NCBI RefSeq assembly: GCF_000003815.2
Contig: NC_049982.1
Coordinates: 6,141,216 to 6,205,215, forward strand
Direction: 5' to 3'
DNA length: 64,000 nucleotides
DNA from: Branchiostoma floridae
Taxonomy: Eukaryota; Chordata; Leptocardii; Amphioxiformes; Branchiostomatidae
Below the pieces are notes generated by a model that made no database searches, had not been told where the DNA came from, and worked only from the letters and a program-made list of their open reading frames with translations. Below are positions 19,908 through 48,400 of this stretch, piece after piece. Every line of letters begins with the position of its first letter. The first letter of the stretch is position 1. A program made the translations under genes and the position numbers.

Positions 19908-22900
19908 ATGGCGGGTGTCCGTGTGGAGCCGCTGTCCACCCGTGAGAAGCTGTGTTACGCGGTGGGGGAGTTCTCTGCGACGATGATGTACAACGTCATG
20001 TCCCTGTACGCTAACATCTTCCTTCTGGAGGTGGTGAAGGTATCTGAGGAATTATGCACCTTTCTACTTGTTTATGAAACTTGATAGTATCAATGTTGTT
20101 GCACTTGTTTCTACCGGATGCTTGGAGGGAGGGGCAGAGAAGTTTTCGCTAGCAGTCGGTGCGGGTGCGAAAGTCAGATCTCAATGATTCGTCATCACAT
20201 TCTTCGTCTGTAATTACCATGTAGGCAGGACAATAACTAGGTTTTAGATCACCTCCAGAACGTGTCAATTTCGTCCAAACCTGATAGGCTTGTTTTTACG
20301 GTAAAAAAACTTATAGTACTCAAATCACTCGCCGTGCACGGGGTCTCCAGACCAACATTTTTAGCAGTTAACATGTAGATCCTCTTCAATTCTATGTAGA
20401 TTTTGTATATTGTTCGAACGTTGTAGAATAAGGCTCATATAGACTATAGGTATTTAGGTAAAGAAATGGAAAGAAAATAACCTTAATGTAGGTTGTCATG
20501 TATCTATCGGTTTGTTGTAACAGTCTTGTTCCCAAAACAGCCATCTTCCCATCACATAGGATTAATACTAGTGCTGCTTCACCGGTCTCGAAAATCAGTC
20601 GTCATTTTTTGTACAACAGACTCATTATCGTATTATGATCAGGACAATGCCAGGCATTCTGTCATTGGGCACTGAAATTCAATTTAGTACAATTTGGTCA
20701 GTTACTTTTGGATCTGGTGTGACAACAGATCATTCTAAAGATCAGTCAATCCAGGCACAAATATATCTCTCACTCTGTTGTTTTGGTAATTTGAAATCTC
20801 GGACATCATCGATCGTGCAGCATTGATGACACTTCCCGATCTCTAAAAGGACATGTTCAACGCTGTTTTTTTTTTCATTGAATGAATGACCTTTATTGTA
20901 CATTTGTGCTCAAACAAGCTAAGTACAGGTCGCAGCGCTAGTGATAATGTACAATTTTGATATAAGAAAAAAGGTACCTTATCACCTCTAACGTTACACA
21001 TGCTAATACATTCTAGTATGTACAAGTTCAACTTCTTCTCTCTTCTTAAAACAGTTATAAACATAAGGACAGATGGAGTCAATAATGTTTTGTCATTGCG
21101 CAGTTTACCCCACTTGTGGCGACTGCGGTAATTTTCGGGGGCCGTGTTTGGGACGTCCTGGCGTACCCTCTCCTCATCCCTGTCATGAACGCGTCCAGGC
21201 CGAACAAGTGGGGCAAGTACAAAACCTGGTGCGTGCTTACAACCATTCACTTCAACTCTCCGATAGATAGACAAAGGTCATTGACTCGGGTAGATACATT
21301 CTTGCACACTACCAAATATGCTCATGGTGCTATGCATATATGGCTGTTGTGATATTATTCTCTTGTCCATGGTATTAATACAGGTACTGTATTATCAGTG
21401 TGGTGAAATCTAATGCCTCCTGTAAAAACAGGTCCAAATAGGGATTCCAGGTGGTCGGTTGGGCTTATAATGGAGTACCTAATATGGCCATAGCCTCCGT
21501 TTCAGTCTTCGGAACGAGGCTGTTTTTTTTTGGGGGGGGGGGGGGGGGGGGAGCGTTGGTTCCCAATTTTCAACGTTGGCTATGTTCTCTTGTGCCGGGA
21601 AAGGGAGTTTGCCGAGAAAGGGAGCAAACACTCCGAAGTTCGGACGGGGCAAACACTCCGAAGACTGCAACGGAGGCTATTATGACCAGCAGTATGAGTA
21701 ACTGCTATGATATCCTAAAATCATATCCAGTTGCTTGGATAACTACAGAATTTGGCGTATCTCATTACATGTATGCCTAACCTTACTCGACGCAAATAGA
21801 AATTTAAAAAAGGAAAATACTTACAACACGCACTTAAGATGGATCAAACCATTCCCAGGATGGTGGCTTCCGTCCTGATCATGATCCCGTCCAACATCCT
21901 GTCGTGGTACGTCCCGGATATCGGCACTGGCGGCAGGATCGCCTGGTATCTGGTGCTCTACGCTGTGTACCTGGTCATACAAACGGTGAGACAGTTAAGT
22001 ACATGTTATATAATGTAATATTCATAATTATGCGAACGAAGATCATCTAGGGGTTTAGTAAAGGTATGAAGAAGGTTTTTGTGTGTGCGTGCAATGATAA
22101 TGATGAATTATATTGTGTATTAGACTATATATTAACATTCAATTAAATTACATAGCGTTATATATAGAGAGAGACTAGAAAAGAGAGAAAGTAGAAGAGA
22201 GAGTGTGTATTTGATGAATTACTATATATGATTAGTTCGCCCTTCTTTATGAAGCCATACTTTGCTTTTATCATTGTCAATACCCAAGACTTCACTTCTT
22301 TACTTGGTAACGTGTTTGCAGGCCTTCGTGATGGCTTACCGCATCCTGCTGATGTACATGACCGAAGACCCGGGCGACAGGGACTCAGCTACCACATACC
22401 GTACGTGTTTTGTTCGTGTCTTAGATTTGTTTTAGAGCGTATATGTTAAGTACATGATGGAACTTAACGCTGTCTTCGCAATTATGTTACTATGTAGGTC
22501 TCGTGTGCCATATAATGTCGATACTGCTGGCGACCGCTGTGCATGGCCAGATCGTGGGAGCGTTCGGTACCACGGATTCAGCGTCTTGTACCGACACAAC
22601 AACCAGCAACAGCAGTGTGGTCATTACTGCAGACCCGGTAAGGCAGTTCCGTTGCCTCATCGTCGATTATAACTTTGATTGTTGAGCAGAATAGAGATCG
22701 GATCGCAAGTTGAACTGGATTCTCCATGCCCCTTCTGATTATCAATTCAAACACGCTTGCGATGACGTGATACTAATGTGCAAAATTCGAGGGATCAACT
22801 AGGAGAATGAAAACAATTGCTCTGTTACGCCATAATCTTTTTCTTCGCCATACAGGAGACCGGTTATCTAGTGTCTGCCGGGACGATTTCAGCCATCACT

Positions 22901-25900
22901 GTCGTTGCCGTCAGTACAGCAGTCTTCGGCGTGAAGGAATACGCAGGTGAACAGTACTACCTTCTTAAAAAAACGGAGGTGTTGTTTTCGCTCTGTTTGT
23001 TTGTCTGTCTTGGTGTGTGTTCAGGTTTGGCTCGCGGGTCCAAGTTTGTTCCCGGGCTGATCAGCTGTAATCAGAGACTGGCAGGATGCGAAGGTTGAGC
23101 TGTCCCGCGTCCTCAAAGAAATTAAAAAATCTATCAGATAGTGAACGCTGGCACATGGCCCAAAGTCAGGAACCCCAGTGTGGCATGTCCCAGCAAGTGG
23201 AACACGTAATGTGTGAAGTGGACGTTTGTTGCAGTTTGTCAAAAAAGTTCTAAAGACTTTCACAAAGGTGTAGTATGATGTACTTCTTGCGCTTAGTGGC
23301 GTTGTAGTAAGAATCCCAGACGTAGTTGAGTCTGAATCGAGATAGAGAGCTGGGGGTTGTACAGGCGCGTCCACGTTTGGGAATGCATTCTTCTTGCCTG
23401 GACACAACCAAAGAGTATCAGAGTTATGATTTCTTGCTTGACGACAGCTGAAAAGTTTTGGCTGTGTACGTAAGTCGTTACCGTCAAAGAATCCACATTG
23501 AAATTATGTTAAAAGATTTGAAAACGTGTCAGGCAACATCGTTGAAATATTAGGTAAATGTTGATTTTTTTTAACAACTTTTCCATTTTCCATCAACAAA
23601 CTTGTATCGCCACAGGGAGCACGGTGCAAAGTGATGACACCTCACGAGGAACTCTGCTGAAGGACATCTGGGAAGTCTGCACCTTCCGGCCGTTCGCTGA
23701 CCTGGTGGGCTTGGGGATGTTGTCAGCCTTTGGCATAGTAGTAAGTAGTGCTTTCAAATCAAGTAGCGGTTGTTCATTAGAGATATAGAGAGACGGGGAG
23801 GGAGAGAGAGAGAAATAGATAGAAAGACATCTATGTATAACAACTGTTCATTTCGTGAATGTAAGTTCATCTGTGACGGTAGTTAACATAATGATAAATT
23901 TGTTAGACTTTATATCCGTACACAAGTTAAAGCGCTTACCAACAAGTTTTCGATCAGTCCCCTCTGATCCTTCTCAAGCTGTAATGACCCAAAAACTGAA
24001 AACGGAGTGGTGACCTCCGTAAAGGGTCCAAAGTGCTTTGAAAGGCGGTTCCGGCCCCCGTCTCGGTTTGGGGGAAGGCTAATTGGCCTTTGAACAAAAA
24101 CGCCTTTTTTCCCCCCCCNNNNNNNNNNNNNNNNNNNNNNNNNNNNNNNNNNNNNNNNNNNNNNNNNNNNNNNNNNNNNNNNNNNNNNNNNNNNNNNNNN
24201 NNNNNNNNNNNNNNNNNNACTGTCAAGCACCTTTGACCCTTTACTGACGTCACACTTCCGTTCCGTTCCTGCGACTTAGGTTTTGGGTCATTACAACTTG
24301 AGAAGGATCAGAGGACTGATCGAAAGCTTGTTGGTAACTGTTCATTTCGTTTTCACGCTGGTACCCTTGTTACCTTCTTTCTTTTAACTCAAACAATCGG
24401 GCACCAGATCAACAAAATTGTTCCGACCATTCTACTGTTTACAGTTTGATTCGGTCCTGAAGCTATCTCCGCTTAACTACAGCCATTAGTTTCTGCAGTT
24501 TTTAAAATGTTTTCATAACTTGATTTTATAATCAACGCATTTAGTGCACCTCATTTAGTACATGTATACAGCTCAGTACAAATCATTAGCCTGTACCAGA
24601 CTCCAGGTGTCACTGAAAAAATATTGGCTAGATAGACATATAAACACACCAGAGGAGTTGCCAGCCCCAGTTTCCCTATCCCTTCGACGCAAACCGTAGT
24701 TCTGTTCCGGTCATGATGAACTCCTCTGGAATTTATGCTATTTCCTGCGACATGTGGAGCCTGGTAGAGGAAAATTTGACTATCGTAGATTTTTACTAAG
24801 GATTGTACACGCTTAACGATTGTCCTGCTCAACGACGCGTCACAATGACATCTACTTTATTTTTCAAGGTATCGTACTGATCCCCCATCGTGTTCTTCCT
24901 CCAACTCGGGCTATAGTCTTACTAATCATGGAGTCAGAATGATGCCGCTGTTCTTTCATCACTTTAGCTACAGGAATGGTCCGCCGCGCTGGCTGTCCAA
25001 TACGGCTATGGCCTAGAAGATCAACTGGAAAACCTCCTGCTTGCATTTTTGGTAAAAGTCGTGATTTTTTTTTATTCTTTCTGAAAAAAAAAATAATTGT
25101 GGTTTCAGTCGGTAGCTTGGTAGTTGAAATGACAAAAACTCATAACAGTAACCAGTCAGAATTGCCCCGAGGAAGGTGACAGACGGTCACTGAAACTTCG
25201 ATGAGAACAAAACAGTGGTTGTGTAAACTAAAGTCTCTTTATTCAGCCAATATGTAGTGTTTTTTCACGCTCACACCGGAGCGGGCCCTTACGTCTATCG
25301 ACATGTGTGGTGGGTACTCCTACGTGCTTGAGGCCGTAACAAGCCAATACCGGATCGAACTAATGCTACAATCACATTTCTAAACCGGGGTTCAATCGGA
25401 TACAATTTGGACATGGTAAATAAAAATGTAACGCTATATCATGAAGTCTTAAAAAAAATTATGCCGTTTTTTATCGTTACAGTATGTGTGTCCTTCTCGC
25501 AAATTGCCCGACCGGGCGCCGTTCGGAAATGTGACAGTAGCATGTATATGAATAAGCTTATTTTGTTTCTTAACACTGTTTCTGTCACGGTTCTTCCGAC
25601 AGGGATGCACTGTTGTGTCCATTCCCATCTCTGCCCTGCTGATGACACGGTTCGGGAAAAAGGCGATCTACGCAGGCTTCACCCTGGTAATGTACAAACA
25701 CTAGGGCTGGGTACCGGTACAGTGTACCGGTACAAAACCGGTTTTTCTTATTGGACCGGTCCAGAAAAACCGGACCTGTAAAAATACGGTAAACCGGATG
25801 GTGGACAGGATGTTAGATTTACTAGAAAAAGAGGTTAATCGGCAGAAATTCACATGTTTGGGGATTACAGATTGAAGAAAATAACAAGAGCGAAGTAGAG

Positions 25901-26223
25901 TACAGTTCACTGTAATCTCTACCAAGTTTTACAGTCAATCGTATAGTGCCAGTTAACCTTGTATGACTTAAAACGCCAGTGGGACTCAAATACTCCACCA
26001 AACAGATTTCTTTGTAGTGGAATGGACCAATGTTCTGAGTATTGTGCGTCCATAAGTTTTCACATACTGAATCAGGTCCAGGTTCAGGTCCGGACCGGGA
26101 CCTGATCCTCTGGACCTGAACCGGACCTGGACCTGAATTTTCTGTACCGGTACCCAGCCCTAACAGACACTCATTGTCCTGTTTGTATATGTAGTGTAGT
26201 ATAAAATGCAACATATATAATTT

Positions 26224-26292
<69 letters not shown>

Positions 26293-29200
26293 CTACAATT
26301 CGGCGACCTCATATTGCCACGAAACATTTAGAGCTTTTGTATATTATATGCAAATGACTCATACCTTTACATAAGTTATACAACGTGATGTTCATCATTG
26401 ATTAACTAACACATGTCACAAGTATAAAATTCCCATCATTTATCATTGAGCAGTTTTGCCATTTGCGCATTAATTGGTTTGTTATCTTTTATGCTCCACC
26501 TGTCATGAATAACATTTGTTAGATTTATGCCCAGTTATGCAAAACAATGTAATTATACAATTTCTACATTTATTATGCAAATTAACACCTCATTTTGCAT
26601 AACATACACATGTCTATCATTGTATACATCTTTGCTTAAGCTACCTTCATGCCTAAAATTACGGAAATCCGTCGTTTCTTTCTTCAGTTATCCTCTTTGG
26701 AATGTTTTGACAAAAATGCCCCTGCAATTCCAAAACTAAATGTTAAGGGACTCCGATCTGCCTCACCCTGTCCTGACGTTATTTGCTAAACGTCAAGACC
26801 ATATCATGTACGAGACAAGAGATACATTGAAAAAAAACTGCTATTATGGAATATTCTCGTTAATCATGCAAATATCCTCCTATTTTGCACATTTTGTATT
26901 TCAGTTTGTTCATCTTTGTCTAAGCTACCTACATACTTCGTTACTCCTTTTTTTTAGCTAGGGGCATCAGCCGCTGTGAGCGCCATGTACATTTCATCGC
27001 GTCTGGACGTACTGTTCATCGTCCTGTGCCTGGTCGGGTTTGGATTTTCCGCTCCCATTTTCATCCCATGGTATGTGTTTTATAAAAAAAAAACTTACTT
27101 AAAAGCTACTTTAAAATAAACTTAACTGACTTTATCACCATGCAGTGTATATGGTACATTACATGGGTAAAGACCTTGACTTTAGTCGCCCTTGTTCGTC
27201 CGGGGGTAGCTATGATTGTTGTTGTTGCTTGGAAACGTCGCACTTGAGGCTAATCTGTATCTGTGCAGAATGTATACTGCTATCATAGACGCCAGAAATT
27301 CCCTCCAATTATTGTAAAAGACCATTTTCATCCCATACTATGCACCCTTATATCAAGTAGTTTAGCTTGTAGTTATGTATTAGTTTATGCCATAATTTGA
27401 CCTTATACAATTGCTGCACAATAAAGTTATTATTATAACATAAACAAAGATTTTCTACTTTTGATTTCAAGTTTCATACGTGTTTCATACGTTACCTCTA
27501 AATCTATTTTGTTGTCTTGGTCATTCCCGTTTGACGCCTTCCCCCCCAGGTCAATGCTGACTGGCGTGGCAGGAGATGGTTCATATCGATGCTTCAAAGA
27601 AAAGTTGTTCAAAGGAATCCCATCGTTTCGTAAATCATCATTGTCTCCCTATCCCCCAGGACTATGCTGACTGACGTGGCGGATGACTTTAAGATCCAGA
27701 AGGGGAAAAGGCGGGACATGCTGTTCCAGACGTTATTCCAGGCTCTGAACTCAACGGCCATGCTGCTCGCTTCAGTCACATCCTTGGTAACTTTGGAGTA
27801 AGGAGATATTTTCTTATCCATGAAAGTGGGACAAACAAAATGAACGGAACTGACAAAAAGAAAAGTAAGAAAGTATTCTGATGATAATTCATAAAACGTA
27901 TCACCGAAATAGGATATCTTTTTATGATGCGATAACGCTTAAGAGACAGAATTGGGCCTACAGTACACTACAGTGATGTATTGTGAGATAAAAGTATACT
28001 TGTCATACGATGTAATGTAAAAGATAGGTTAGACGAAAGGCAAAAAATAATGAACCCGGGGCAACTACACACACACGTGTACACACACACAGACCCCCCC
28101 CCCCCACACACACACACTTGTGTACACACAAGAACACACACGTGTACACACACGAACACACGTGTACACGTACGAACACATACGTGTACACACACGAACA
28201 CGTGTATACACAGACGCACGTGCACACACACACACACACTCACACACACACATGCACACACACACACACACACAACCAAACCTAGAATAATATCTCTGTT
28301 TTCAAAAAGGTTATGAACAAACCCAATTGAAGAGAATTAGAATATGATTTGCGCGGGTAGAAGTCATAACTCTGTCGACCGCTAAATTTGTATTTGCCGA
28401 TGGCACACGTTTCCTTCAGACATTTTATCAGCCCTCTATAAGCATATCGGTAAAAGATGGTTCCAACGAAAGACTGACTCTTCTTTATCTGGGTAGAATT
28501 AAAGTTGATCCAAAGCAAGTTAATTTGACAGATTTATCATTTAGGCAAACATGGATACAATGCACAATGAATAACCCTCTCCTGTAGGATCGGCGGTTAC
28601 CAGACCGGTTCCTGCACCCAGCCAGACTCCGTCGCCTTCACCACCCGCCTGCTGGTCTCCTTTATCCCGGCGGGGGCGACCCTCCTCAGTCTGGTCTTCC
28701 TCTGGCGCTACCAGCTCACAGGCGAGAGGCTCGCGGCGAACAAGGCTGTGCTAGAGGAACGAAGGTACCATGTCTTCAGACTTTCCCACTGTACGAAAAG
28801 TGGGATCTCCCAATAGCGCTAAACGACAGGCATGCCGGGTAACGCTTAACTTTTGACGAACATTTCCAGACTTACCTGGCATTTACCGCTTTTGGATCCG
28901 TTTCGAGAAATGCAACGCTAGCTTACCTTCATTCGTGGGGTAACCTATATTGGTTTTATGATATTTCATCATCATCATCCAGGCGTGCTGGTTGCACGGA
29001 TGTCCATGACTCTCTTCCTCCATCCTTCCCTATCCTCCATAGCCTTGGGCAGTTCTTCAGCCGAGCAGCCAGATATTTGGGTATCCCCAATTGCACTTAT
29101 TGTTGAAGATATTGCAGTTTGAAATCACCGTCAGTCGACTTGATATCCCTAAATATACGTTTTTAGTTACACGGATATAGGTTACCCTGCAAATGAAGGT

Positions 29201-30498: not shown

Positions 30499-30942
30499 TC
30501 ACTTACTCTGTTTCATTGGCCTACTAGTATAGGAAACAATTCACACCCTTCAAGTGGAAATCATCCAGAATAGTTGTCGTTTTGCCGCGTCAATTCATTT
30601 ATATATTTCCATTTTCGTTCTCTGTTAAGGCCTACGTCACGTTTCAAAACCGGGGCCCGGCCGAGAAGCTTTCGGGAACGAAATGTATGAGGATAGACGT
30701 GGGCATCATCTGTTTATCTGTTTATGTATACATGGCTATTTTACGTTTCCACAAACAGCCCTACCGGTTTGGGAATCTGACGTTGGCCTAATTATGCACA
30801 CGCTATATACCGACGGTAATGATCTAACTGCTTGTTTGCTGTTACGAGAAACAGGACTGTTGTTAGCATCTCCTTTAATCTATATAAATTAGTATAGTCC
30901 AGCGTGAATATTGAATATCGTGTGCTCTCTATGAAACGAGTA

Positions 30943-31032
30943 ATTCATGCAGAAACTGAAGACGTAAGTCTGCTAATCGTGTATACTAGAATACACGATT
31001 AGCAGACTTACGTCTTCAGTTTCTGCATGAAT
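30943..31032. repeat. Perfect 42-bp-arm palindrome in 3' flank of copy A
   Basis: Arms 30943-30984 and 30991-31032 are exact reverse complements around the hexamer ACTAGA. The right arm matches single-copy sequence in the flanks of B (about 44795-44850) and C (about 63660-63715). The left arm is therefore the new, inverted copy. Confidence 0.92.
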
Positions 31033-33368: not shown

Positions 33369-36300
33369 ATGTCTACTGTCCGTGTGGAGCCGCTGTCCAC
33401 CCGTGAGAAGATGTGTTTCGCGGTGGGGGAGTTCTGTGGCGTGATGACGTACGACGTCCTCTCCCTGTACGCCAACATCTTCCTCCTGGAGGTGGTCAAG
33501 GTATCTGAGACATTCTCTTTTCGCTCCCTTAGAAAAAGTTACATCTGTAGATATGGCTCTATTTTTTTTGTACCATTGCGTTCGTATCAACACCATCTGT
33601 ATCACTAGTCGTTTGAAGCTTCATGGCATTAATTGGCAGCAATGAGGAAATAGGAAGAAGATATTCAGTTGTTTGACTTTCTATTGTATCATAGACCAAA
33701 AAGACTTTGCGAATTCTTACCACACAGAATAACTACACTCCCGAAGAACATAGGGCCCAACGACAGGCCCGTCCACCAAACTAACATCACTGTGAGATGT
33801 ATCTGCCATATGTAGTTTTTCCATGTCCTAAAGCGTCCGATGTGGTTTCAGTTACAACAGCACCTACACTAACATTCTGTTGTTGTTATTGTTGTTGTTG
33901 TTCAGCTGACTCCCCTGGCGGCCACTGCGGTAATTTTCGGAAGCCGAGTTTGGGACGTCCTGGCGTACCCTCTCCTCATTCCGGTCCTGGACGCGACCAG
34001 GCCGAACAAGTGGGGCAAGCATAAAACCTGGTGCGTGTTTACACTTATCCATTTTAGTTATACAAACAAAACTAAACATCATGTTTATGCTCTGTGTTGT
34101 CCTGCGATAGGTGTCCCTGTACATAGTGACAATGACAATGAAGTTTATTGCAGTAAGTCACATATAATAATAAGGAGACTGATAGGTAAGCTATTCTATG
34201 TTCTACTTATGCCTATATTTCTACATCCTTCTTCCCTCTTCTTAAAACATGAGAAGACATTAGATATTTGAAAAAAATCTCCCTTTGTTAGTTGTGCATA
34301 TTTCTGTTGTGCAAGTGTAGTATTAACAAAGGTATTGCGTATATCTTTGTACTGTGAACATTCTAGAAGAAAGTGCACTTCATTTTCTATACGCCTATAG
34401 TTCTTATTACAAAACATACATAATCTATCATTTGGAGGAGTTCGGGTGTATCTACCGGCTTCAATTTGTAGAGGGTGATCGCTGATCCTTAAGTTAGTAA
34501 AAATGATGCCGTGCCAAACAGGGACTACACTACCAAGTTACGCTGCTAACTACTGATTTACCTACCTGATAAAACTATTGACTTGACTTGACTTTTATTC
34601 AGATCCACAATTATCTTGGCAACATACAAGTACATTGTAGCTGCTCATCCTGTGGTCCTCTTTAGCAATCATGATAACATAATAGTACAAAGATATGACA
34701 CACAGAAGCATATTGTATTGAGATATGACATCTTAAATCTAATTCTCTGCCAAATGAGTAATACCGTGGACGTCGTAATTGGCATTTGCTAACAGCGTAT
34801 CTCAAATCAATTTAAAACCCCAAAATAACAGCGCTTGTTAGTTATTTCAAACCTTCGGATTTGTCACTGGTTCAAGCTTTGGGTTGCATCCGAAATACGG
34901 ACGCATTGGACAAATCCAGTGAATCCAAATACAAATTACAATGTTCGCTTCTTGTCAGCTTTTCTAAGCCTACAGTCACATTTACAAACCGGGGCCCGGC
35001 CGATGAGCTTTTGGGAACGGAAAGTACAATACATATATATATATTTTTTTTTACTTATTTGCAAATCTATGCCCGTAGGCTAATTGCAATGGTACAAAAA
35101 ATAAAAGGTAACAAGTGTCTATTCTATACAGCTATCTATATGCATGTTTCTACATTCTTTACTGGGAGGTTTGACTTCTTCTTTGGAGGCAGTGGCTGAT
35201 GAAAACTCCCACCTCTTTTATGATTTATGGGTTCTGTGATTTTAACAGGAATGTAGTTTTTTTTTTTGATTTACTAACTGGTGAAAAGTTGGAAAGACAA
35301 CAAAACACAGAATGTAAGAATAATTAGTCATGGCCATAATTTGTGTACAGACCTTGATATGCACTTTTATCTATCGTTTATGCAAAACTCCAACAGTAGC
35401 ATAAGATGGGGTTCACCCAAAAAGCAGTGACAAGCAATTGGATGTGGTTTCTCAGACGTTTCCGACAGCATCTGATGCCTTTCGACAGTGACACTCAAGT
35501 GAAAGACAGTGGTGCTGTCTGAAACGTCTGAAAAGTCATACCTGGATTTCTAACCTTCATCGACGTATGGGGTTTACCGTTTTCAGGATGGTCGCATCTA
35601 CTTTAATCGCCATTCCTTCCTACGTGCTGGGGTGGTACGTCCCGGGTATTGACAGCGGAGTGAAAGTCGCCTGGTACCTGGTCTTCTACAGCGTGTTTCT
35701 GGTGTTCCAAACGGTGAGGCAGGCCTGATTTGAATGACGCGTTCAAAACATGAAGTAACTGTAAATTGACCTTTTAAAAAACTTTGACACGAAAACGGTT
35801 TAAGACGATATGTAGATGAAAAGCGCATTCTCCGTGCATGGTGTCATATTCCCAAATTTTGGGAACGAAAAGTATGATATGAAATAAAACAAAACGCGAA
35901 ACGCGTAAAAAGAAATTAGTCATGGACACAAATTGCGTACCTTTTTTGATAGACAGCCCAGTTTTGACTCGAGATCCTGGTATAAGCAAGTATCGGCTTT
36001 ATTGCAGGCCTACACCATTACTCATCGTACCCTGCTGATGTACATGACCGAAGTACCAGCCGAGAGGGATTCAGCAACAACCTATCGTACGTACTGTCAC
36101 GGAGTAGGTGGCACGGAGAACTGAAGTAGTAATATGTATAACGTTATAGGCTCGTTCTCATTGAAATGTAAAAAATGCTGTCGCCTACCTTTACGACTTC
36201 ATATAGAGCAAATCATAAACAATATCACTGGTCCCTTCGGTTTTCCACAACCCCTGTAATGTTTTACGAAATATGCACCACAACATTCATATTGGTTGAT

Positions 36301-39300
36301 GGCTTGGGATATTGTTATATGGCTGTCGCCTGAGATGACACGAAGAATTCAAGTAGTAGCCAAAAATGTAACAATTCAGCTCACATGATGATTGTTAGGC
36401 AGGTGAAACCAACTACCCAGTCCCCCTGACCGATCACGTCAGATCGCTCCCGTCACTGATCTTGGAGGCAGTGTGAGGTGGTTTATGTCTGTCGCCAAAT
36501 TCGGTAACAAACGTTACCACCACGATTACGATGGTTGTCACGGTTATATTATCCACGTTTAAGACTAGAAATGACCGTTATTGTGACGCTGTACAGTTTT
36601 TCTGGCTTTCTAAAAGAAACAAGAAAGGGACATTGACTGCCATTTGTATCCCACCTTGCTTGTGCAGAAATAACTGTAACAAACGTTACCATTGTTAAAG
36701 TTTACTGCTATAACAAACGTTACCGGTAACGTTTGTTACCTGCCCTGTAATACATAACCAATGGGTAAGAAAATAATAAGTTGCCATTTTTTGGCTATGG
36801 TTAAAAGAGGAATTTTCTTAACCAAACAGGTAGGTTTCAGCGAAAAATAAGCCTATTCATTTTTCGAACAAAAATTGCCATTTTTTACATTTTAATGAGA
36901 ACGAGTGTATAGTCTTCTTTGCTATGTGCAATCTTTTCCCAGTATTTTCCCACGATACACCCCTTTAATTTGCCAACACCTTATGGCCTAGCTATGTCTC
37001 TCTCTCTAACCTCCAGAGGGCCCACAGCTATACAAGCACTAGTATAGTGTAGGCTCTATGGGGCTAGCCCACCGATGTGTGTTCAACTAGCCTACATATG
37101 TTTTACCGTAAGCAGATCGGAGAAAGTCGCATGTCTCTTCCATCCGTTTTTTTTAGCCCGCGACCTCAGGAATGCAAAGCGAACTGTTTACTCACTTGAC
37201 AATCATTCCTCATCATCTTCACCAAGAATGATAATATGTTCTTGGTGTCATTTATTTGCTTCCACGTCACACTATGTACATGTAGTTGAACAGCAAGTTT
37301 CTATGGTACTGCGTCAGAAATGCCGGTTTTGATATCCTACGTTATGGACAAACGCTTTTCATGATTTTTGCTGATTTTTCCCTGTCTAGGAGTTCTATGC
37401 CACATGTTGTCAAATCTCCTGGCCATCGTTGTCCATGGACAGATCGTGGCAGCGTTCGGCACCACGGAATCTGCATCGTGTGTCAATTCCACAATCAGCA
37501 ACACGAGTACGGCCGTCACTGCGGACCCGGTAAGACAAACATTCCGTTTGTTTGTGTGCTTGTTTGTTACTGTTAGTTTGCGTAACTGGCAAATCACTTA
37601 AGGTAAAATATTAACAATTTTTAGATCAGACTTTTGTTGAATCCACTAAGACTATAGATGACCTTCTCATGTCGATAAAGATATAGAGATAACTTTTTTT
37701 CATGACATTTGTACATGGTACAATGTATGGCAACAACTATTACACAAAGTTCGAAATAGGTGTATAGAATAAGACATAACATCTTAATTAACATAACAAG
37801 AAGGGCTAACACAAGTCTTTGATATAGTGTTACAATCGAGTTGGGCTAATCATGAGTTTCAGTATTCTTTCTAATAGCAAAGCAGTCGTTGATATATTTG
37901 CCTATCTTTGCATTATGCGAGTTGTGGCATCTAAAGATATATACAAATCTGCCTGTAGCTTCGAGTCTCCTGAAATCTGCTGTACTGGATTCAAGAAATG
38001 TGAATAGCTCATTACGTAAAATAGCGTATCTAGAAATGTGGTGGTTTCTCCATGGTTCTCGATGTCTGGATTTCCTCAGATCCTCACCTTCATGTCCCAT
38101 CCGAGACAGGAACTTCTCTAGCAGACATCATAAACGTCAAAAGGCAAAAGGCGTCCGTTTGATAAATCTATCCATGTGTGTATGTATTTTGAAGCAGAGG
38201 TTAAACTCGCAGCTCTTTTTGGCCCTTTGTTTTAAGATAACAGAAACGCATGCGCAGATGCATTTGTATATAATCAAGTGCATCGAAGAAATCCATCCTT
38301 ATCAGTTAGTGAGAAAATCAAACACAGTTTTACCCAAAATTTTTTTAGCAGAAACATTTCTTTTCCTTTTCAGGAGACTGGTTACCTCGTATCAGCTGGA
38401 ACTACCGCCGCCATCATCACTATCGCTGTTTGTGCAACAGTCTTCGGAGTCAAGGAGTACACAGGTCATTTACATCCTTCTATTAACTGCACAATTACTG
38501 ACATACATTGAGGCATGAGCAAGTTGAAGAATGATAAGCCGCCAATGAACGTTATTACCGACGAATGATCAGATCAGTTCTTTTTTGTTCTATTTATGCT
38601 ATGATAATATGATGTCTCTGTCCACAGTGAAACAGTAAAATAAGATGTATGTTGTAATTACTACAGGGAGCACGGTCACCGATGACGACACCTCACGAGG
38701 AACTCTGCTGAAGGACATCTGGGAAGTTTGTACTTTCCGACCGTTCGCTGACCTGGTGGGCGTGGGGATGCTGTCAATCTTTGGCACCATTGTAAGTTGT
38801 AGTTCCTTCTCGGGAAAAACTGTCAACAATATGCTCCAATGTGAAAACTGCAGGGGAGGAAAGGATAATTATCACCTATGAGCATCGAAACGACATTGGA
38901 AGGACCTCGTCTCTTACATTGAACAAGAAATGATCTACAAGGTTAGGACTCATCAATGATATTTCGGTAGCCTCAATGGTCTTTTTATGATTCTCAGAGC
39001 CTTACAGCCAGTTATATCTAACAGAAATCTTAATACATTCTCAATAGGCACAGTAGACGCTCCTCAGGCACTCTAAAGAAATGTCTCAACCACGTGATTC
39101 TACAACCGGCTACAATCCATTCAGTGTTCACTGTCTTTGTTTGATGGAACACATTATAGCTGGAAATATGATGACTTAAAACAAAGCTTTCGGTTCTCAA
39201 CTCACTCCCTGCCACGTTCCATTGCCATCAAGTCTCGCTGAAACAGCGAGTCGTCACCTAATACCGTCTCTCTCTCCTCACCACAGCTGCAGCAATGGTC

Positions 39301-42300
39301 CATTGCACTTGCAATTCAATACGCCTATGGACTTGAAGATCAACTGCAGAACCTGCTCCTCGCTCTTTTGGTAATGGCACTTTTTTTCCAAACTTCGGTT
39401 ACATCAAGTATGCTTCATCCATGGCAACTTGGTCAGCAGACTACCTATGTATGGTCAAATTGTATAGTTGTATGTTGACTGTAATTTTATTGCAACATTA
39501 TGTATCTTCTCCTTTCCTGAGAGAGTAGCTGGCAGTAGATAGCTAATTAAAGTGACTTGAAACCTCAACAGACACCAAGCTAGCCCTGTAGTCAATGGGT
39601 CGTTCCTCAGTATATGATCATGAGCACACTGTGCCCGCATAGGAATATCCAAATTCACTTGTTGCAGGGGCCGCAATGCCAGTAACAATCGTATTGACAA
39701 GGATATGCGATCCTTCCTTTTGCTTTCTTCTACATCTAGGTAGCAAGTGTCTTATCCGTCCCCGTCGCTGCCCTACTACTGAACCGTTTTGGGAAGAAGC
39801 TAGTCTTAGCAGGATATGCCTTGGTAAGTAACGCTCTTTTATCAACACAAAGCTTTATCGACTTTGATCGTATGAAGGTTCATCTGTGGCGGTAATCGAC
39901 ATAGTAAAATTGTGTGCTACATCCGTACACAAGGTAAAGCTCTTACACTTAGCAACAAGCAACAAGTTGATTTGACCCGACGCCTACGTCACCTGACCTG
40001 AACGGAGGTGTGGCGTCACCAACGGGTCATAGGTGCCCAGTAGTCTGTATCGGCCCCAGACATCTGCAACCTAAGAAGTCTCCCAGGACATCCACCTCCA
40101 GTCCTCTGGACATCGTGAGTTTGAAGTCAGGAAACTGAACAGCATTATTTCCTGTGAGAAATAAAAGATATCTATATGAGGGGCTCTTCGACCATCCCTC
40201 AACATAGACGGGGGTCGGTACCGACTGCTGGGCATATTTGCTACTATGTTGACTTGTTGGGTCACCTCGTTCAAACCGCACACAGGAACCGTTCATTCAC
40301 GTTACAGTTCTATGAAAAGAATGGACATTGCTATTTACATGCCATTGCCTTTGCAATCTTTCTGGATCCATGAACAGAAAAAGGGCCCAATGTCCAAAGA
40401 TTGTACGTGTATGTGCGCATTACTTCAACTATGATAGCGTCAAATCGACCATGGGGGTTAGGCATCAAGGTAATAAGACAAACTGTTTAAGCAACTGGTT
40501 AGGCATCAAGGTAATAAGACAAACTGTTTAAGCAACTGGTTAGGCATCAAGGTAATAAGACAAACTGTTTAAGCAACTGGATAGAAATCCGGCCAGGCGT
40601 TTCAGACAGCATTTGTTATCTTTCGTCAGTTACTAATAAAGTAGTCTCTGGAGTTAACGTTACCCGGTTTTCCAGAGCTTTGGGCTAAAAACCTGGTAAC
40701 TGGCAGACTGATGATATAGTATGTATAGATATTATGTAGTTCTCATGCCCGCTTCAAATGGTTGCTAATAAAAGGAATATGCAGCAAAGTTGTGTTGGAA
40801 TCAAATGTACTATTTTCCATCTTTACAGTTAATGATGGGAGTTTCGGTGGGCCTGATGTATGTTCCAACAAGGCGACTGGATGTTTTTCTCCCAGTGGTC
40901 TGTCTCGGCGGTGCTGGAATTACTGGCCCAAACTACATACCATGGTGCTGTAGAAATGTTTCATTATTATATCTTTTCTATTATGCAAAAGTTACTGAAG
41001 GGTTAATGACCCGCCCCGAGGTGTATATGGTGTGATAGTGCCTGGCCCCTTGCTATAACTACCGAATGAGGTGGTTATAGCAAAGGACCAGGCGTTATCA
41101 CACCATATACACTGAGGAACAGGCGGGTCATTAACGTTATTGTCATAAAGCCTACATAAACTTGCAAACTCCTGTATGACACAAAGATCCCTTGGTACTA
41201 TACGTGTGAATTTCTTTGTAGAATTTCTAGAAATTCACATTTGTTCTTTGGGAGATTACATATTGCATTTTGAATCCAAAATTTCCACAGAAAATATTCG
41301 AAACATTGCCGTCTTGGCATGCCAAGCCTTTTCAAAATTCTACTGTACTGTATTCATGATCATTCATCCCTCCGGGGTCTGATCTTTCCTCCCTGCTCTG
41401 TGCTATTCATGTACCTCTCATTCTGATTGGTCCTGTGTGTATCGCTCCTTCTGATTGGTCAGAATGTGATGCAAATCTACAACATATATCGATTCAAATT
41501 CTGACCAATCAGAAGGAGCGATACACATCGGGCTGGCCGGAGTCTGTGTGCTACGGCGTCATAACCAACATGGAAGGGGCCTTCTGATTGGTCCGCGGCG
41601 CCTGGCTATATGATAATATAGACTATAACGTTAAACTAAGTGGCAATATGGACCGTTCCCGTAGAACGCCATATCGAACAAACAGAACTCCCTGTTCTAT
41701 TCCGAATCCAGTCGTTCTTTCAATCATCATTGCCTCTCTATTCCCCAGGACTATGGTGACTGACGTGGCGGATGACTTCAAGATTCAGAAAGGGAAGAGG
41801 CGGGACATGCTGGTCCAGACGTTATACCAGACCCTGTATATAGCCGCCGTACTGCTCGCTTCAGTCACCTCCATAGTGGCTTTGGAGTAAGGAAATGTTT
41901 TCTGAAGATGTAACGGAAGGTGCCGCAACTTCGGCATACCCGCAACTTCGGCATAATTTTTAATTGTCTCATTATGCAGAAGTGAGGCATGTTTGTTTTC
42001 ATCAACAGTGCTGAATAAAATCGCAAGAACCCAAGTTATTGCACAGAGCTGTCGTCTGGATGAAACACGGTTTTGTGTACAATAACCGTTTTTTGCGTAA
42101 CCAACGAATTTGAGCATTTAAAATGGCTACGTTCGAAGCAAGGTCACCTTCCGTTATACATGAAAGAGAGACAAAGAACTGAACAAAACTGATAGAGGGA
42201 AAAGAAAGTATCTTGATGATAGCACATAAACTATCTGCAATAGGATATTGTTTTCAAAATACCAGAACTATAAACAATCAACAATTAGAAAGGATAGGGC

Positions 42301-44350
42301 CTACAGTACACATTGATGTATTGAAAGCACTTTTGCAGCAGTACTCTAATGTTTTTCAGTAACAGATTTGATTAACAACGCTTTTGTGTAAGTGGCCAAT
42401 TAGACCTTGTGCAAGGCTTAGCGAAGACGTCTTGGAGCGCCGGCATTACTTTTGGGAGGGGGTGGGAGGCGCTCCAAGAAGTCTGCGAAGAAGGGTAGGC
42501 CTGGCTATCAGTAGAGGACAAGGTTTGCCTGCAAACGCCAATGCTAGAAGTTGTTGCAATGTTTTATGTCTGTCCCCTCCTCTCCAAATTTTACAGGTTG
42601 CTGGAGAAATAATTGAAATTGGCTAAGTAGGCGGAATAACATGCCTGAGGAGTACAGCTCTCAATCGTAATCCCCCTGGATTAACTAATAAATCCTAATA
42701 ACTAATAACTCCTCTGGTAACATGTTCGGCAACATGTTGGGCCTGGTGGAGACTACTGTGATTGGTGGCTGGTTGAAAATTGTACACGTTTCTTGCCGTC
42801 TCCTACAGGATCGGCGGTTACCGGACCGGTTCCTGCACCCAGCCGGACTCCGTCGCCTTCACCACCCGCCTGCTGATGTCCTTTATCCCGGCAGGGGCGT
42901 ACCTCCTCAGCCTGGTCTTCCTCTGGCGCTACCAGCTCACAGGCGACAGACTCGCGGCGAACAAGGCTGTGCTAGAGGAACGAAGGTACAAAGTCTTGAG
43001 ACATTTACATATGAGAAATGAAGATAATTATTATTATCTCATAATTAAAAATGAATGACAATGAAGTGTATTGCATATTCATGCCCCATTAGGGCTAAAT
43101 GCAGTAAGTTACTTACAGAGAAAATCATAATCTATGCTATATCCTGCTTATATCTACGCTTTACTACTCTCCAAGCAGAGGTTAGGCTCCGGCTGTTTTT
43201 TTAACCGGTTTTTTTAGTCGTTTTTATCGGGCTTTCTATTTTGTATTGTATCTTGCTGTGTCAAAACCTAANNNNNNNNNNNNNNNNNNNNNNNNNNNNN
43301 NNNNNNNNNNNNNNNNNNNNNNNNNNNNNNNNNNNNNNNNNNNNNNNNNNNNNNNNNNNNNNNNNNNNNNNNNNNNNNNNNNNNNNNNNNNNNNNNNNNN
43401 NNNNNNNNNNNNNNNNNNNNNNNNNNNNNNNNNNNNNNNNNNNNNNNNNNNNNNNNNNNNNNNNNNNNNNNNNNNNNNNNNNNNNNNNNNNNNNNNNNNN
43501 NNNNNNNNNNNNNNNNNNNNNNNNNNNNNNNNNNNNNNNNNNNNNNNNNNNNNNNNNNNNNNNNNNNNNNNNNNNNNNNNNNNNNNNNNNNNNNNNNNNN
43601 NNNNNNNNNNNNNNNNNNNNNNNNNNNNNNNNNNNNNNNNNNNNNNNNNNNNNNNGGGAGGGGGGCGGGCAAAACGCCGCAAGACAGCGGGAAGAGAAAA
43701 AGAGAAGGGCGAGCGGAGAGGCGCGCCAGACGGAACGGGAGGCAGGCCCGGGGGACGAGGCGCGCCGCGCGCCGGGCAAGAGGCGGGCGGGGGCCCAGGA
43801 AGCGGGGGGGCGAGGCCAGGGGGGGCGCGCGACCACGGGCGCGCGGGCGCGACGCGCGACCCCGAATACCGGGCACACAACAGGAAAGCCCCGCATCAAA
43901 ACGGACCAAAAAGGAGTCGAAAAAACAGCCCGGAGCCTAACCTCTGCTTGGAGAGTACGCTTTACATGCTTCTTCCAATGAAGCAAGTCTTTAACTTGTG
44001 GGGTTAGACTTCAAAGTGGCGGTCCCGTGTTCGAGGAGGTGCCTCTGGCTGTGCTAATACAAGCAGGGCAACTAGCAGCAACTTTAATTTGTAAATTGTT
44101 TCATGATGAAAACCATTTAAGAAGAAGGCATTTCGTCTTCTGGACAAGGACACAAACATCAAAACATGCTGACCTGCTTTATGTGACGTTTTCCCCCAGG
44201 ACCCAGCAGTCTGCAGACAGCGGTAACACCGACAAGGCGGCACCACAGCCGTCTCTGGCCATGAAGTCACATGACTTACCGGACACACGCGGACCGGTGC
44301 AGCTGACTTACTTCGGGCCTTACGGTTCCTTCCGGTTTAAACTCCCTTAG
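33369..44350 (+). CDS. MFSD2-like MFS transporter, copy B
   Basis: Same family and gene plan as copy A. Exons: 33369-33500, 33906-34030, 35587-35713, 36008-36086, 37390-37529, 38374-38464, 38667-38791, 39287-39370, 39740-39823, 40829-40944, 41749-41886, 42809-42985, 44200-44350; 522 residues, stop TAG. The start follows CTACAAA, as in copy A, and gives [14 protein letters not shown]. Helix 2 reads [15 protein letters not shown]. The helix 5-6 loop has SASCVNSTISNTS (two glycosylation sequons). The loop before helix 12 has GSCTQPDS. The tail ends [12 protein letters not shown]. Exon 10 is one codon longer than in copy A, as in copy C. Introns carry LINE fragments, palindromes and an element with assembly gap 2. 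No frameshift or stop interrupts the frame, so it looks functional. Substrate unknown. Confidence 0.9.
34125..34520 (-). mobile_element. LINE 3' fragment (ORF2 C-terminus)
   Basis: On the minus strand the translation gives LRISDHPLQIEAGRY, then RLCMFCNKNYRRIENE, then VHFLLECSQYKDIR. This is the Cys/His-containing C-terminal signature of many animal non-LTR retrotransposons. The 3' end reads TGCAATAAACTTCAT. The reverse-transcriptase part is missing. It lies in intron 2 of copy B. Confidence 0.75.
36503..36740. repeat. Cluster of GGTAACAAACGTTACC motifs
   Basis: The 14-16 bp motif (G)GTAACAAACGTTACC occurs at 36503-36518 and 36676-36690. At 36711-36740 it occurs as a back-to-back pair forming a perfect palindrome centred on ACCGGT. 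Location: intron 4 of copy B. Confidence 0.6.
37620..38100 (-). mobile_element. LINE 3' fragment in copy B intron 5
   Basis: The minus-strand frame at 37846-38100 contains LFTFLESSTADFRRLEATG then FVYIFRCHNSHNAKIGKYI. This pattern resembles the extreme C-terminus of animal LINE polyproteins, and AT-rich 3' UTR-like sequence follows it. The corresponding intron of copy C is much shorter and lacks this frame. Confidence 0.5.
40457..40579. repeat. 41-bp tandem repeat, three copies
   Basis: Units start at 40457, 40498 and 40539 (GTTAGGCATCAAGGTAATAA...). They are identical or nearly so and sit at the edge of a dispersed repeat (CAAGCAACTGG ... TTTCAGACAGCAT) that also occurs near 6160-6290, 10060-10180 and 35430-35530. 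Confidence 0.85.
41002..41135. mobile_element. Palindromic MITE in copy B intron 10
   Basis: Arms of ~55 bp (GTTAATGACCCGCC at 41002, complement ending 41135; GTGTATATGGTGTGATA and its complement) surround a ~15-nt loop. No coding capacity. Confidence 0.75.
41436..41527. repeat. Inverted repeat with CCAAT boxes
   Basis: The 30-bp arms at 41436-41465 and 41498-41527 are perfect reverse complements, each including CTGATTGGTCAGAAT or its complement. Two more CTGATTGG motifs lie nearby (41422, 41582). Confidence 0.75.
41911..42156. mobile_element. Short TIR element in copy B intron 11
   Basis: TAACGGAAGGTG (41911-41922) and CACCTTCCGTTA (42145-42156) bound 246 bp. The homologous introns of A and C run through this point without it, so it is a copy B-specific insertion. 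Confidence 0.7.
43165..43957. mobile_element. TACTCTCC-type TIR element with assembly gap 2
   Basis: Termini TACTCTCCAAGCAGAGGTTA (43165) and the complement ending at 43957 are flanked by a perfect 8-bp target duplication CGCTTTAC (43157-43164, 43958-43965). The N run 43272-43655 sits between the arms. The right side of the gap (43656-~43900) is extremely GC-rich and looks like corrupted sequence. It inserted into LINE-tail sequence (43050-43140) in intron 12 of copy B. Confidence 0.85.
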
Positions 44351-45490
44351 CCATTTCCTCTGTTTCATTGGCCTACTGTTATTGGAAAGAATTCACACCG
44401 TTCAAGTGGAAATGAATCCAGAATATTAGTCGTTTTGCCGTTAATTTATTTACATATTTCTTTTTTTTTTTTGGTTCTCTGTCAAGGCCTACGTCACATT
44501 TCCAATCCGGGCAGCTTTCGGGAACGAAAAGTATGGTATAAACTATAAAAGACACCAAGCTACATACGACGTAAAGAGGATAGTCGTGTGCATTGTTTGT
44601 ATTAATAATATAACTGTTTGTTTGCTGCTACAAGAAGTAAGACAGTTCTTGGCACCTCCTCCCATTAATGTAACTTAGTATAGTCCAACATGAATATTGA
44701 ATATGGTGTTCTCTCTACGAAAGGGCATTTAAAGTAATACGACGTCTTTACTACAGGACACACGGTCTCTGTATGTATGTCTAGTACCATGATACTAGAA
44801 TAAAGGCTTAGCAGCCTCTAACGTTACGTCTATAGTTTCTGCATGAATCCATTGAAAAGCGTCAACATTTAGTCTCCAAGCAGACCCTACGGTGCCTTAG
44901 AAATAGTATCAAAGCTGGCCAGGGACTTGGTATACCGGCACTANNNNNNNNNNNNNNNNNNNNNNNNNNNNNNNNNNNNNNNNNNNNNNNNNNNNNNNNN
45001 NNNNNNNNNNNNNNNNNNNNNNNNNNNNNNNNNNNNNNNNNNNTATACCGGCACCGGTGCCCGTTTGTCTACCTTAGCCGGCTATCTCCCTTTGGCCGGC
45101 TATACTCCTTTGCCAGCTTTGATACTATTTCTAAGGCACCGTAGGGTCTGGCTTGGAGACTAGTCGGGTATGGTTTTGCAATAAAGTTATATCACATATA
45201 CATACATTTTTGAAAAAGCCTTTCCTAAGGACTGCAGACCTTACCTGACAAAAGAGCAGTATTAAAGCTAAAAGTAGTAGACCACAGTCGCGAAGTGGAA
45301 ACTGTGATGGAAAGATTTTATCTAGAATACGACACCGAGGTGCCAGCCCGATCGCCGGAGGGTAATCCAAAAACAAAATATTCAATCTATTCTTTTGGTG
45401 TGGCATGAAGTAAAACTAGTTATGTAAGTAGGCCCACTAGGACGTAACGTTACACCGATGACAACAATGAGGCATCTTCACTCTGTCAAA
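44351..45490. other. Spacer between copies B and C
   Basis: Holds the conserved 3' flank of the transporter genes, a TIR element with assembly gap 3, and the upstream region of copy C. The last ~260 bp match the region before copy B (CCAAAAACAA, TGGTGTGGCATGAA) and the end of the window. No gene recognised. Confidence 0.6.
44872..45160. mobile_element. TA-flanked TIR element with assembly gap 3
   Basis: Long TIRs begin GTCTCCAAGCAGACCC.TACGGTGCC and include TAGAAATAGTATCAAAGC; the right arm ends GGAGAC at 45160. TA flanks both ends (44870-44871, 45161-45162), as for Tc1/mariner-type MITEs. The N run 44944-45043 (exactly 100) lies between the arms. Degenerate relatives occur near 16.6 and 17.6 kb. 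Confidence 0.8.
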
Positions 45491-48400
45491 ATGGCGGGGG
45501 TCCGTTTGGAGCCGCTGTCCACCCGTGAGAAGCTGTGTTACGCGGTGGGGGAGTTCTCTGGCGTCATGACGTACGACATCATCTCCATGTACGCCAACAT
45601 CTTCCTCCTGGAAGTAGTGAAGGTATCTGAGAAGTTGTTCTCTTTTCGCTCCCTTAAAAAACTTACATCTGTAGACATACCTGTATTTCTTTGGGCGCCC
45701 TTGTGTTATATCAGCATCACCTGTTTTGACCCACTGTACGTCAGTCTTTGCAACTTCTAATATTTCCGAATTCCTAAATCCTCATTAATACATTTTTCAT
45801 GCTGTCCATCGTGATTATAGAGTATTGTCCTTTCTCAACGGCAGCAGCTGTCCTGATACGGACATTGTTTGAACAGTCCGTGACAATTTACACCACCTCA
45901 GGTATATTTATTTATTTATTGGTTTGGCTGCACCGAACACACAGCCAGGGCTGCCCAACTAGCCTATGGCTATTACAAAGGGCTAGCCCTGCTGACAAAC
46001 ACATAAACAATACATATTAAAAAAGAACATTTATATATACATGGTGTAGGATAACTTACATATCATCTAAAATGGAGTATATAACATCATATCATGGACA
46101 ACAATATTTGCAATGAGAGGTCAGGGTCTGTATACACGTGTATGACACCATGCGTAAGGGTCGCCTAGACATTCCCACAGACACCTCAGGTATAAGCCTG
46201 TTTTCTTGCCGGGGTTTTATTCCTACGACCTGTAATCCTAGAATATGTTACAGGGTTCCGACAATGCAACAGACGTACACGTAAATGCATAGAGAGGTAC
46301 ATAGTAATATATGTATTACAAGTCACTACGTACAAATTCGTAGTGACTTGTGTCCAGAACGTGAACTATTCGTTCGTCAGTGACCAACGTGGCAGTGATT
46401 TTCTTTCGTCAGTGTCTTTCCCCCTTTGGAAGTAATTCAACAATATTGTAATACTGTTGAAAATACTGAAAGAGTGACATAACACACTGTTCGGTGTGGT
46501 AACATACGTAGCAGCACCTATCCTAACATTCTGTTGTTGTTGTTGTTGCTCAGCTGACTCCCCTCGCGGCAACTGCGGTAATTTTCGGAAGCCGAGTTTG
46601 GGACGTCCTGGCGTACCCTCTCCTCATCCCGGTCCTGAACGCGTCCAAGCCGAACAAGTGGGGCAAGCATAAAAGCTGGTACGTGTTTACAGTTTATGTA
46701 TCCATTTCAGCTATATAAACAAATTATATAACACAGGGTATATCATGTTCGCTACGCTCTATTTCGCCCTGCTATACACACTGATAATGATGCAGTGCCA
46801 AACGGGATTACAAAACGGAGCTACACATTGATTTAAGTACCTGATGAAACTATTCAGGGACGTTGTTTTTAGATTTGACATCTGAAATATTACACTACCC
46901 TTAAAACCATGGGCGTCGTAAGGGGCTAACAGGGTGTCTCGTATCAATTCAAAATCCCACAATGACAGCGCTTGTTGGCAGAAGGGAAAGCATTGTTTTT
47001 TGCTCAATTCCTTCTTATTCTTCTCTAAACAAATAACGGAATCTAGCTTTAAAGCACTTGGGGCGGCATGATAGGAACAAGTATTAATGGGAAATCTGAG
47101 TAAGCACGAACTGCATTAAACGTTAAATCGAAGTTTTCTATTGCTTGCTCAAAAGAAGAAAAAAATTGTGAAAACAAAAATAGCGGTCTCTGAAAAAACT
47201 GACCATGCTGTTAAAATGTGTTTGGACTTTGCACTGGAATCACGGGAAGATTCGATGCGTATACTTCGAGGATCACGTGCGGTGTGCTGAGGTAGCCTTA
47301 TCATGATCAGTTTCTCGACAAATGCGGGGCGTTTATATTTGTGGCATTTCTTGTTGCGATTACGATAACCAGCCTTTTTGTGTAAAACAAAGTATCTACC
47401 ATCTGTGGTAATCAATTTTGACTTGTACTGGAATGCAACAAGTGGCGTAACCAGCGCCAATGCCTGGCATCGGTAGAAACTTACGCTCGCTCGGTTGCTA
47501 ATCTAATTTGGGCTCTACCCTTTATTAGGATGGCCGCATCCACGCTAATCGTCATCCCCTCCTACGTGCTGGGGTGGTACGTCCCGGGTATTGACAGCGG
47601 AGGGAAAGTCGCCTGGTACCTGGTCTTCTACAGCGTGTATTTGGTGTCCCAGACGGTGAGGCAGACCTGATTTGACTCATTACCTCCATGAAATTTCATG
47701 GAATGGAGGTTATATTTTCTGTTATGTGTCTCTGTCTGTGTAGATGATTACTCAAGAACGGCTGGATGGATTGGTTTCATACTTGTTGTGTTGGTGCGGT
47801 GTGATGAAAGCTCGAATCGATGAGATCTTGGGAGCCGTATCTGTAGTTATAATCGATGTAATAATATAAGAAATCACCCCTATATTTGAGATATATTGGT
47901 ACAGGCATCGTGCTGTATGTGTTTGTTAATGGGCTTAGCTGCAAACAGATAGTGAGGTGACAGCTGTTTGGGGAACCCCCAGTAGTTTTATTTATGTCTG
48001 CTTAGGACTGTTTGAAATATTTGTAACAGTTGGCACAGTAGTTACCTCCATGAAATGTCATGGAGGTTATATTTTCTGTTATGTGTCTCTGTCTGTGTAC
48101 AAGATTCCTCAAGAACGGCTGGATGGATTGGTTTCATACTTGTTGTGTTGGTGGGCTGTTATGAAAGCTCGAATCGATGTGATTTTGGGCGCCGTATCTG
48201 TCGTTATAATCGATGTAATAATATCAGAAATCCCCCATATATCTGCGATATATTGGAACAGGATATTGGAATTGGATATATCGTGCTTTAAGTGTTTGTT
48301 AATGGGCTTAGCGCCAATCAGATAGTGAGGTGATTTGTATGACAGCTGTTTGGGGAACCCCGAGTTTTTTTAATATGATAATTAGTTTTATTTATGTCTG

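Follow-up and report, generated by a model that had tools for sequence, protein, structure and literature searches.

What becomes of an MFSD2-type lipid transporter when residues of its sodium site are replaced? The question is raised by a stretch of 64,000 nucleotides from Branchiostoma floridae (NC_049982.1, positions 6,141,216 to 6,205,215; hereafter the window, C4:6141216-6205215 in our contig numbering), which holds three MFSD2-like genes in tandem, A (19908..28816), B (33369..43058) and C (45491..58257), all on the + strand. An earlier note on this DNA had proposed that the three copies keep the fold of MFSD2A, the Na+-dependent lysophosphatidylcholine (LPC) symporter, while their coupling chemistry has changed. 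We favour, with a probability of roughly 55%, the reading that A, B and C encode intact MFSD2-type MFS lipid transporters that would work without Na+ coupling, as facilitators or with weak proton assistance.

Ion-site residues are replaced in three tandem MFSD2-like genes

Exact coding matches to the peptide WDVLAYP, which the earlier note had read in exon 2 of each copy, lie at 21149-21168, 33951-33970 and 46599-46618 on the + strand; allowing as many as three mismatches adds no other site in the window. In shuffled controls with three mismatches allowed, three or more matches arose in 1 of 100 shuffles. MAFFT alignment to MFSD2A, followed by a recheck of the codons, places a Tyr (TAC) at the second Asp of the WDxxxDP cation motif (chicken D92) in A (21164..21166), B (33966..33968) and C (46614..46616), while the first Asp (chicken D88) is kept (GAC at 21152..21154 in A; 33954-33956 in B; 46602-46604 in C). 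The helix-11 Lys (chicken K436) is likewise replaced, by Ser in A (TCA, 27751..27753) and by Ile in B (ATA, 41840..41842) and C (ATA, 56923..56925). For C, HMMER agrees at both positions, aligning its Tyr with the second Asp of WDAITDP and its Ile with the MFSD2A helix-11 Lys. Both substitutions are thus as the earlier note had given them.

Two findings had been named as counting against such losses, a different acid at the site and a Lys in a shifted register, and neither appears at the level of sequence. No other acid that could substitute for D92 lies near the site in helix 2, where the first Asp is the sole acid of a 12-residue stretch. A shifted Lys is ruled out by the helix-11 stretch Asp387-Glu414 (C numbering), which contains neither Lys nor Arg in A, B or C.

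Other functional positions have fared unequally. In MFSD2A, D92 is a proposed Na+ site, and R85 and E312 have been termed absolutely conserved (PMC10250862). The equivalent of R85 is present in all three copies. Chicken E312, which had been deemed essential, is kept in A (LQEW, 24974..24976) but is Gln (LQQW) in B (39293..39295) and C (54910..54912, also by HMMER), and is Gln in the canonical lancelet gene described below as well. D88, T154 and W403 (chicken) and R180 (zebrafish) also have their equivalents in A, B and C. At zebrafish S160/chicken S161, each copy has gained an Arg in helix 4 (+ strand; A, CGC at 22340..22342; B, 36026-36028; C, CGT at 49493-49495). As had been noted earlier, the extracellular cysteines (Cys185 and Cys422/423) and the sequons of the glycosylated loop are present in all three; a Cys185-Cys422/423 disulfide is predicted by homology, with the loop Cys a few columns off in the alignment.

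The genes are intact members of the MFSD2 family

All three genes match the Pfam family MFS_2 (PF13347) over nearly their full length (residues 16-458), with E-values of 4.3e-58 for A, 1.9e-56 for B and 1.1e-53 for C. TIGR00792 matches C at 9.8e-36, under the curated cut-off of that model. In an HMMER search of PDB with C as the only query, the best matches, which span almost all of C, are four MFSD2A sequences, 7oix, 7mjs, 8d2s and 7n98 (E-values from 1e-59 for 7oix to 2.2e-57), followed by MelB at 0.13; no chain named MFSD2B is among the seven PDB sequences that match C at E-values up to 1. A and B were aligned by MAFFT, and A, B and C are 27-29% identical to 7oix. We take 7oix to be human MFSD2A and 7n98 to be its mouse counterpart. 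Residue numbers used in PMC10250862 and PMC10167227 fit chicken for 7mjs and zebrafish for 8d2s.

BLAST between the copies and reading of splice sites give 12 coding exons per gene with identical intron phases. Exon 1 lies at 19908-20039 in A, 33369-33500 in B and 45491-45622 in C, and exon 12 at 28588-28816 in A, 42809-43058 in B and from 58067 in C, where the frame is open as far as 58433. AG precedes exons 2-12 and GT follows exons 1-11 throughout, except for a GC donor at exon 9 of C, and the models contain no internal stops. The C-terminal ends are uncertain in all three, because a donor-like GTAC follows ERR in each; the tail of A may be spliced further. Protein identity is 88% between B and C, 73% between A and B and 76% between A and C.

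A fourth tandem copy, D, likewise of 12 exons, lies beyond the window, with its exon 2 at C4:6206420-6206545, 1.2 kb past the window end. It is 92% identical to C in protein and, like C, carries WDVLAYP and an Ile at the helix-11 site.

Comparison of A-D over about 470 codons gives ratios of nonsynonymous to synonymous change (dN/dS) of 0.25-0.32, indicating purifying selection. These values argue against decay, though not against a role other than transport. Pseudogenes are ruled out by intact frames for the ten genes that were checked over 12 exons.

Altered ion sites across the lancelet genome

We searched the host genome (513 Mb in 431 contigs), in which all locus counts are lower bounds. 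Exon 2 of C found 14 matches, comprising A, B, C, D and ten more on C2, C5, C7, C11, C19 and C325. Models of 12 exons were built for D and nine others, some exon ends being uncertain in the more distant genes. In the C2 model, exon 7 was not accepted and exon 1 was set by hand from a tblastn match; the C325 gene was modelled over 8 exons, up to the end of its contig.

Among these modelled genes and the four vertebrate MFSD2A chains, the D92 column holds Asp in the vertebrates and in the gene at C2:10.23 Mb, Asn in nine genes and Tyr in A-D. The K436 column holds Lys in the vertebrates and again at C2:10.23 Mb, Arg in the C11:8.32 Mb gene, Ile in B, C and D, and Ser in A and seven genes on C5, C7 and C19 (exon 11 of the C325 gene was not seen). 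In the gene at C19:10.51 Mb, a Lys stands one residue ahead of the helix-11 Ser. The E312 column is more varied, with Glu in the vertebrates, A and the C11 gene, Gln in B, C, D and the C2 gene, His in six C5 and C19 genes and Leu in the C7 and C325 genes. The C2:10.23 Mb gene, with both D92 and K436 and 53% identity to MFSD2A 7oix, is the canonical member in this genome.

Exon-2 queries from this canonical gene and from a C19 gene each returned the same 23 loci. The nine loci so added, which are known from exon 2 alone, agree with the others in donor phase (9 of 9), and their D92 states are D, F, G, S, D, N, G, F and Y. Over all 23 loci, the D92 position is Asp in 3, Asn in 10, Tyr in 5, Gly in 2, Phe in 2 and Ser in 1; the D88 position is Asp in 14, Ser in 5, Glu in 2, Trp in 1 and Met in 1. 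Both Asp residues are retained at a single locus, and the cation site is altered in the other 22. A, B and C are therefore a local case of a wider pattern in the same genome. The loss is not confined to these three copies, and the earlier proposal of a kept fold with changed coupling, while borne out in family membership, fold signature, cysteines and intact frames, was drawn too narrowly.

At some loci the other half of the site has changed. In five loci, four at C2:24684830-24719465 and one at C18:3149571, the first Asp is replaced by Ser at D88 and R85 is lost; D92 is kept in 2 of the 5. What these loci lack is the other member of the ion pair. Exon 2 reads EILAYP at C11:5461999 (Tyr, TAT) and EILSFP at C6:5848314 (Phe), both having Glu where the first Asp would stand and placing an aromatic residue at the D92 site beyond the C4 cluster. 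Exon 11 was seen for two of the added loci, with His at 436 for the C18 locus and Gly for C2:24.72 Mb (both by eye, and assigned to genes by position). A further exon-11 locus at C5:8.84 Mb has Arg at 436, by eye, and is without an exon-2 match. Our searches of open-licence PMC papers turned up no report of a lancelet MFSD2 with an altered ion site, and lancelet MFSD2 is the subject of none of the titles that they listed.

Phylogeny and the possible order of residue loss

Bacterial relatives were collected by tblastn of MFSD2A against plasmids, where 292 records matched and 11 that gave whole proteins were chosen, together with one cyanobacterial chromosome locus, the single yield of a back-translation search for further prokaryote relatives. 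A thirteenth locus, with a split gene, was not joined and was excluded from the counts. D88, D92 and K436 are all present in 12 of 12 of the sampled bacterial relatives, and D92 and K436 also in 4 of 4 vertebrate chains and in the canonical lancelet gene, so that D92 occurs in 17 of 17 reference rows. In the modelled genes of the clade that includes A-D, D92 is absent from 13 of 13, and a positive charge at 436 from 11 of the 12 in which exon 11 was seen, the remaining one having Arg.

This distribution bears on the idea of ordinary Na+ symport from a displaced site, in which D88, T154 and (in A) E312 would hold the Na+; we think this idea has little chance of being right. The equivalents of D88 and T154 are indeed kept, as is E312 in A, and in simulations E312 forms a bridge between Na+ and the headgroup (PMC10250862). 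Set against this are the constancy of D92 among the reference rows and the behaviour of MelB, where D59C alone abolishes Na+ binding although D55 and T121 remain.

A tree was built with columns 92, 312 and 436 removed and was rooted on five sequences from bacteria, whose branches are long and were flagged by the program as meeting. The 13 genes without D92 form one clade (support 100/98), and the C2:10.23 Mb gene groups with vertebrate MFSD2A (92/86, under the program's star). On this tree, the loss of Asp is one change and the charge at 436 requires two, having been lost twice or else lost once and regained. A topology with the C11:8.32 Mb gene outside the rest, under which the Lys charge need have been lost only once, is mildly disfavoured (9.25 log units worse, p-AU 0.039). 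The Ser at 436 is encoded by TCA in A as against AGT in the seven other Ser genes, which fits separate origins.

A scan of charged columns found four clade-wide losses and four clade-wide gains. Of the four lost charges, D92 and K436 alone are also charged in every one of the five bacterial rows; the gains include the Arg at zebrafish S160, present in 12 of 13 clade genes. The loss of D92, K436 and (in B and C) E312 together with this new helix-4 Arg might also mark a change of substrate, from zwitterionic LPC to, for example, anionic lysolipids or another amphiphile. We regard such a change, which is compatible with uncoupled transport, as possible but would advance it only tentatively. Headgroup contacts in zebrafish Mfsd2a include K433, Y50, Q51, T432, H156 and E184 (PMC10167227), and 0 of these 6 are retained in A, B and C; the near-universal Arg in the clade and the different pocket states of A and B/C (E/Q312, S/I436) point the same way. 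The headgroup trap itself speaks for continuity, however, since the equivalents of R84, D87 and R180 are kept and E421 is Asp.

Probable transport without sodium coupling

Kept family features, a lost Asp and Lys, and intact genes evolving under purifying selection together make changed coupling the natural interpretation. Na+ symport is hard to reconcile with a missing carboxylate, and with the Na+ site altered in A, B and C and in nearly all of their relatives in the genome, lipid movement is probably Na+-independent. In A, B and C, Tyr has replaced the helix II carboxylate of Na+/H+ coupling (chicken D92 = human D97 = MelB D59), and its helix-XI Lys partner has gone. In MelB, Asp59 is a Na+ ligand and a suggested proton site, and the D59C mutant loses Na+, Li+ and H+ coupling while retaining downhill sugar transport, with K377 then pairing with D55 (PMC10942615, PMC11259710, PMC12851581). 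A, B and C, each with 12 predicted helices, would most likely continue to switch between outward and inward conformations, carrying an amphiphilic, lysolipid-like substrate. They would do so without Na+ coupling, as gradient-driven uniporters or with weak proton assistance through the remaining Asp (chicken D88).

The headgroup of LPC in zebrafish Mfsd2a meets first R84, D87 and K433 and then R180 and E421 (PMC10167227); in A, B and C all but K433 have a counterpart, the helix-11 acid at 421 being Asp in each copy. The headgroup would probably be held by R85/D88, the Arg that precedes the helix-5 gate (zebrafish R180), this helix-11 acid and the new helix-4 Arg.

A functional precedent comes from MFSD2B, an exporter of sphingosine-1-phosphate that is Na+-independent and stimulated by a proton gradient, and that is active as D95Y (strongly) and as D95S (PMC7948482). 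Its D95 and T157 are equated with D97 and T159 of MFSD2A in the same paper; at these positions A, B and C have Tyr for the Asp and keep the Thr (chicken T154 column). Activity of D95Y shows that a functional MFSD2-type transporter can have a Tyr at this site. A carboxylate here is not required for every kind of MFSD2-type transport, and on this point the earlier interpretation was overstated. The same data invite the alternative that A, B and C are proton-assisted exporters in the manner of MFSD2B, with D88 or a Tyr network sensing protons and a lysosphingolipid or lysolipid as cargo. We consider this unlikely. In MelB without D59, the counterpart of D88 (D55) is unable to accept a proton, and D59C lacks H+ coupling (PMC11259710); moreover, A-C and the MFSD2A-type gene belong to different clades in the tree, which covered MFSD2A-type and bacterial sequences besides the lancelet genes.

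Several observations weigh against uncoupled transport as we propose it. In Mfsd2a, D92A disrupts sodium binding and leaves only background activity in proteoliposomes (PMC10083588), the residue being the second Asp if the numbering is that of chicken and the first if it is that of mouse, and mutants of Lys433 are abolished or reduced in function (PMC10167227). In MFSD2A itself, such losses stop transport rather than uncouple it, and the background in which they occur evidently matters. E312, in addition, is Gln in B and C. Finally, we compared 21 vertebrate-invariant functional positions, drawn from part of a table in PMC10167227 with D91 and E309 added, with the other vertebrate-invariant columns. 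The functional positions are kept at 5 (A), 4 (B) and 4 (C) of 21 and the others at 34-37%, which is no difference (Fisher p 0.15-0.35), and a preferential change at functional residues is accordingly unsupported. That these positions are conserved no better and no worse than the rest suggests general divergence rather than specific retuning, and a general functional shift, with a change of substrate among the possibilities, would fit equally well.

The inactive Mfsd2a sodium-site variant (with the same dependence on species numbering) and the absence of the MFSD2A-essential D92, K436 and, in B and C, E312 could also be taken to mean that the proteins no longer transport at all and serve under selection as receptors, scaffolds or trafficking factors. 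This is improbable in our view, given the purifying selection described above, the retention of R85, D88 and W403, and the function of D95Y in MFSD2B.

Genomic surroundings of the cluster

A repeat lies 3′ of each copy (window positions 30242-30864, 44145-44500 and 58663-59331), with 76-87% identity between copies, and was apparently duplicated together with the genes. The window contains four runs of N (24119-24218, 43272-43655, 44944-45043 and 59819-59918), three of them exactly 100 bases long, and none overlaps a modelled exon. Adaptin N-terminal exons lie 5′ of the cluster on the + strand at 513-866 and 4792-5169, one clear and one under the family cut-off; they resemble what is presumably the gene of the AP-2 alpha subunit. 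Between these exons and A is a mariner fragment with the helix-turn-helix of a Mos1-type transposase (PF17906, 4.9e-8, 18162-18491, + strand). An Rfam search of the window gave no match, and a search of phage families gave one weak match that adds nothing to the reading.

Comparison with known transporters

The change from symporter to uniporter in the MFS has been studied through engineered mutants of MelB. The lancelet genome combines a canonical MFSD2 gene with at least 22 related loci in which the ion site is altered in graded ways, intact wherever whole genes were checked. These may form a large MFSD2-type family of lipid facilitators that became uncoupled naturally, in which an ancestral loss of the Asp was followed by discarding of the Lys, probably twice, and the clamp moved to the helix-IV Arg; we offer this as a conjecture, with the odds somewhat against it. 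On the same conjecture, the states D/K, N/R, N/S, Y/S and Y/I at the two positions would form a natural series from symporter to facilitator, alongside loci that lost the first Asp instead. The lancelet gene set makes the order of Asp first and Lys after directly testable, as it does the need for Na+ in lipid flipping, termed unresolved in PMC10167227. It also cautions that homology alone is insufficient to label such proteins sodium-dependent symporters.

Three known systems frame the comparison. With MFSD2A/NLS1, A, B and C share the MFS_2 family, R85, D88, W403, the extracellular cysteines and the loop sequons; they differ in Tyr at D92 and Ser or Ile at K436, in E312 being kept only in A, in not keeping F60, F61 and F399, and in forming a separate clade while the C2:10.23 Mb gene groups with MFSD2A. 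MFSD2B is of the same family, is Na+-independent and is active with a Tyr at the equivalent site (D95Y; PMC7948482), but its wild type keeps the Asp, and it was compared with A-C through its published description only. The MelB D59C uniporter of the GPH family has lost the same carboxylate from a related fold; it is, however, a sugar symporter mutated in the laboratory and retains the helix-XI K377, whereas A, B and C lack the Lys and presumably carry a lipid.

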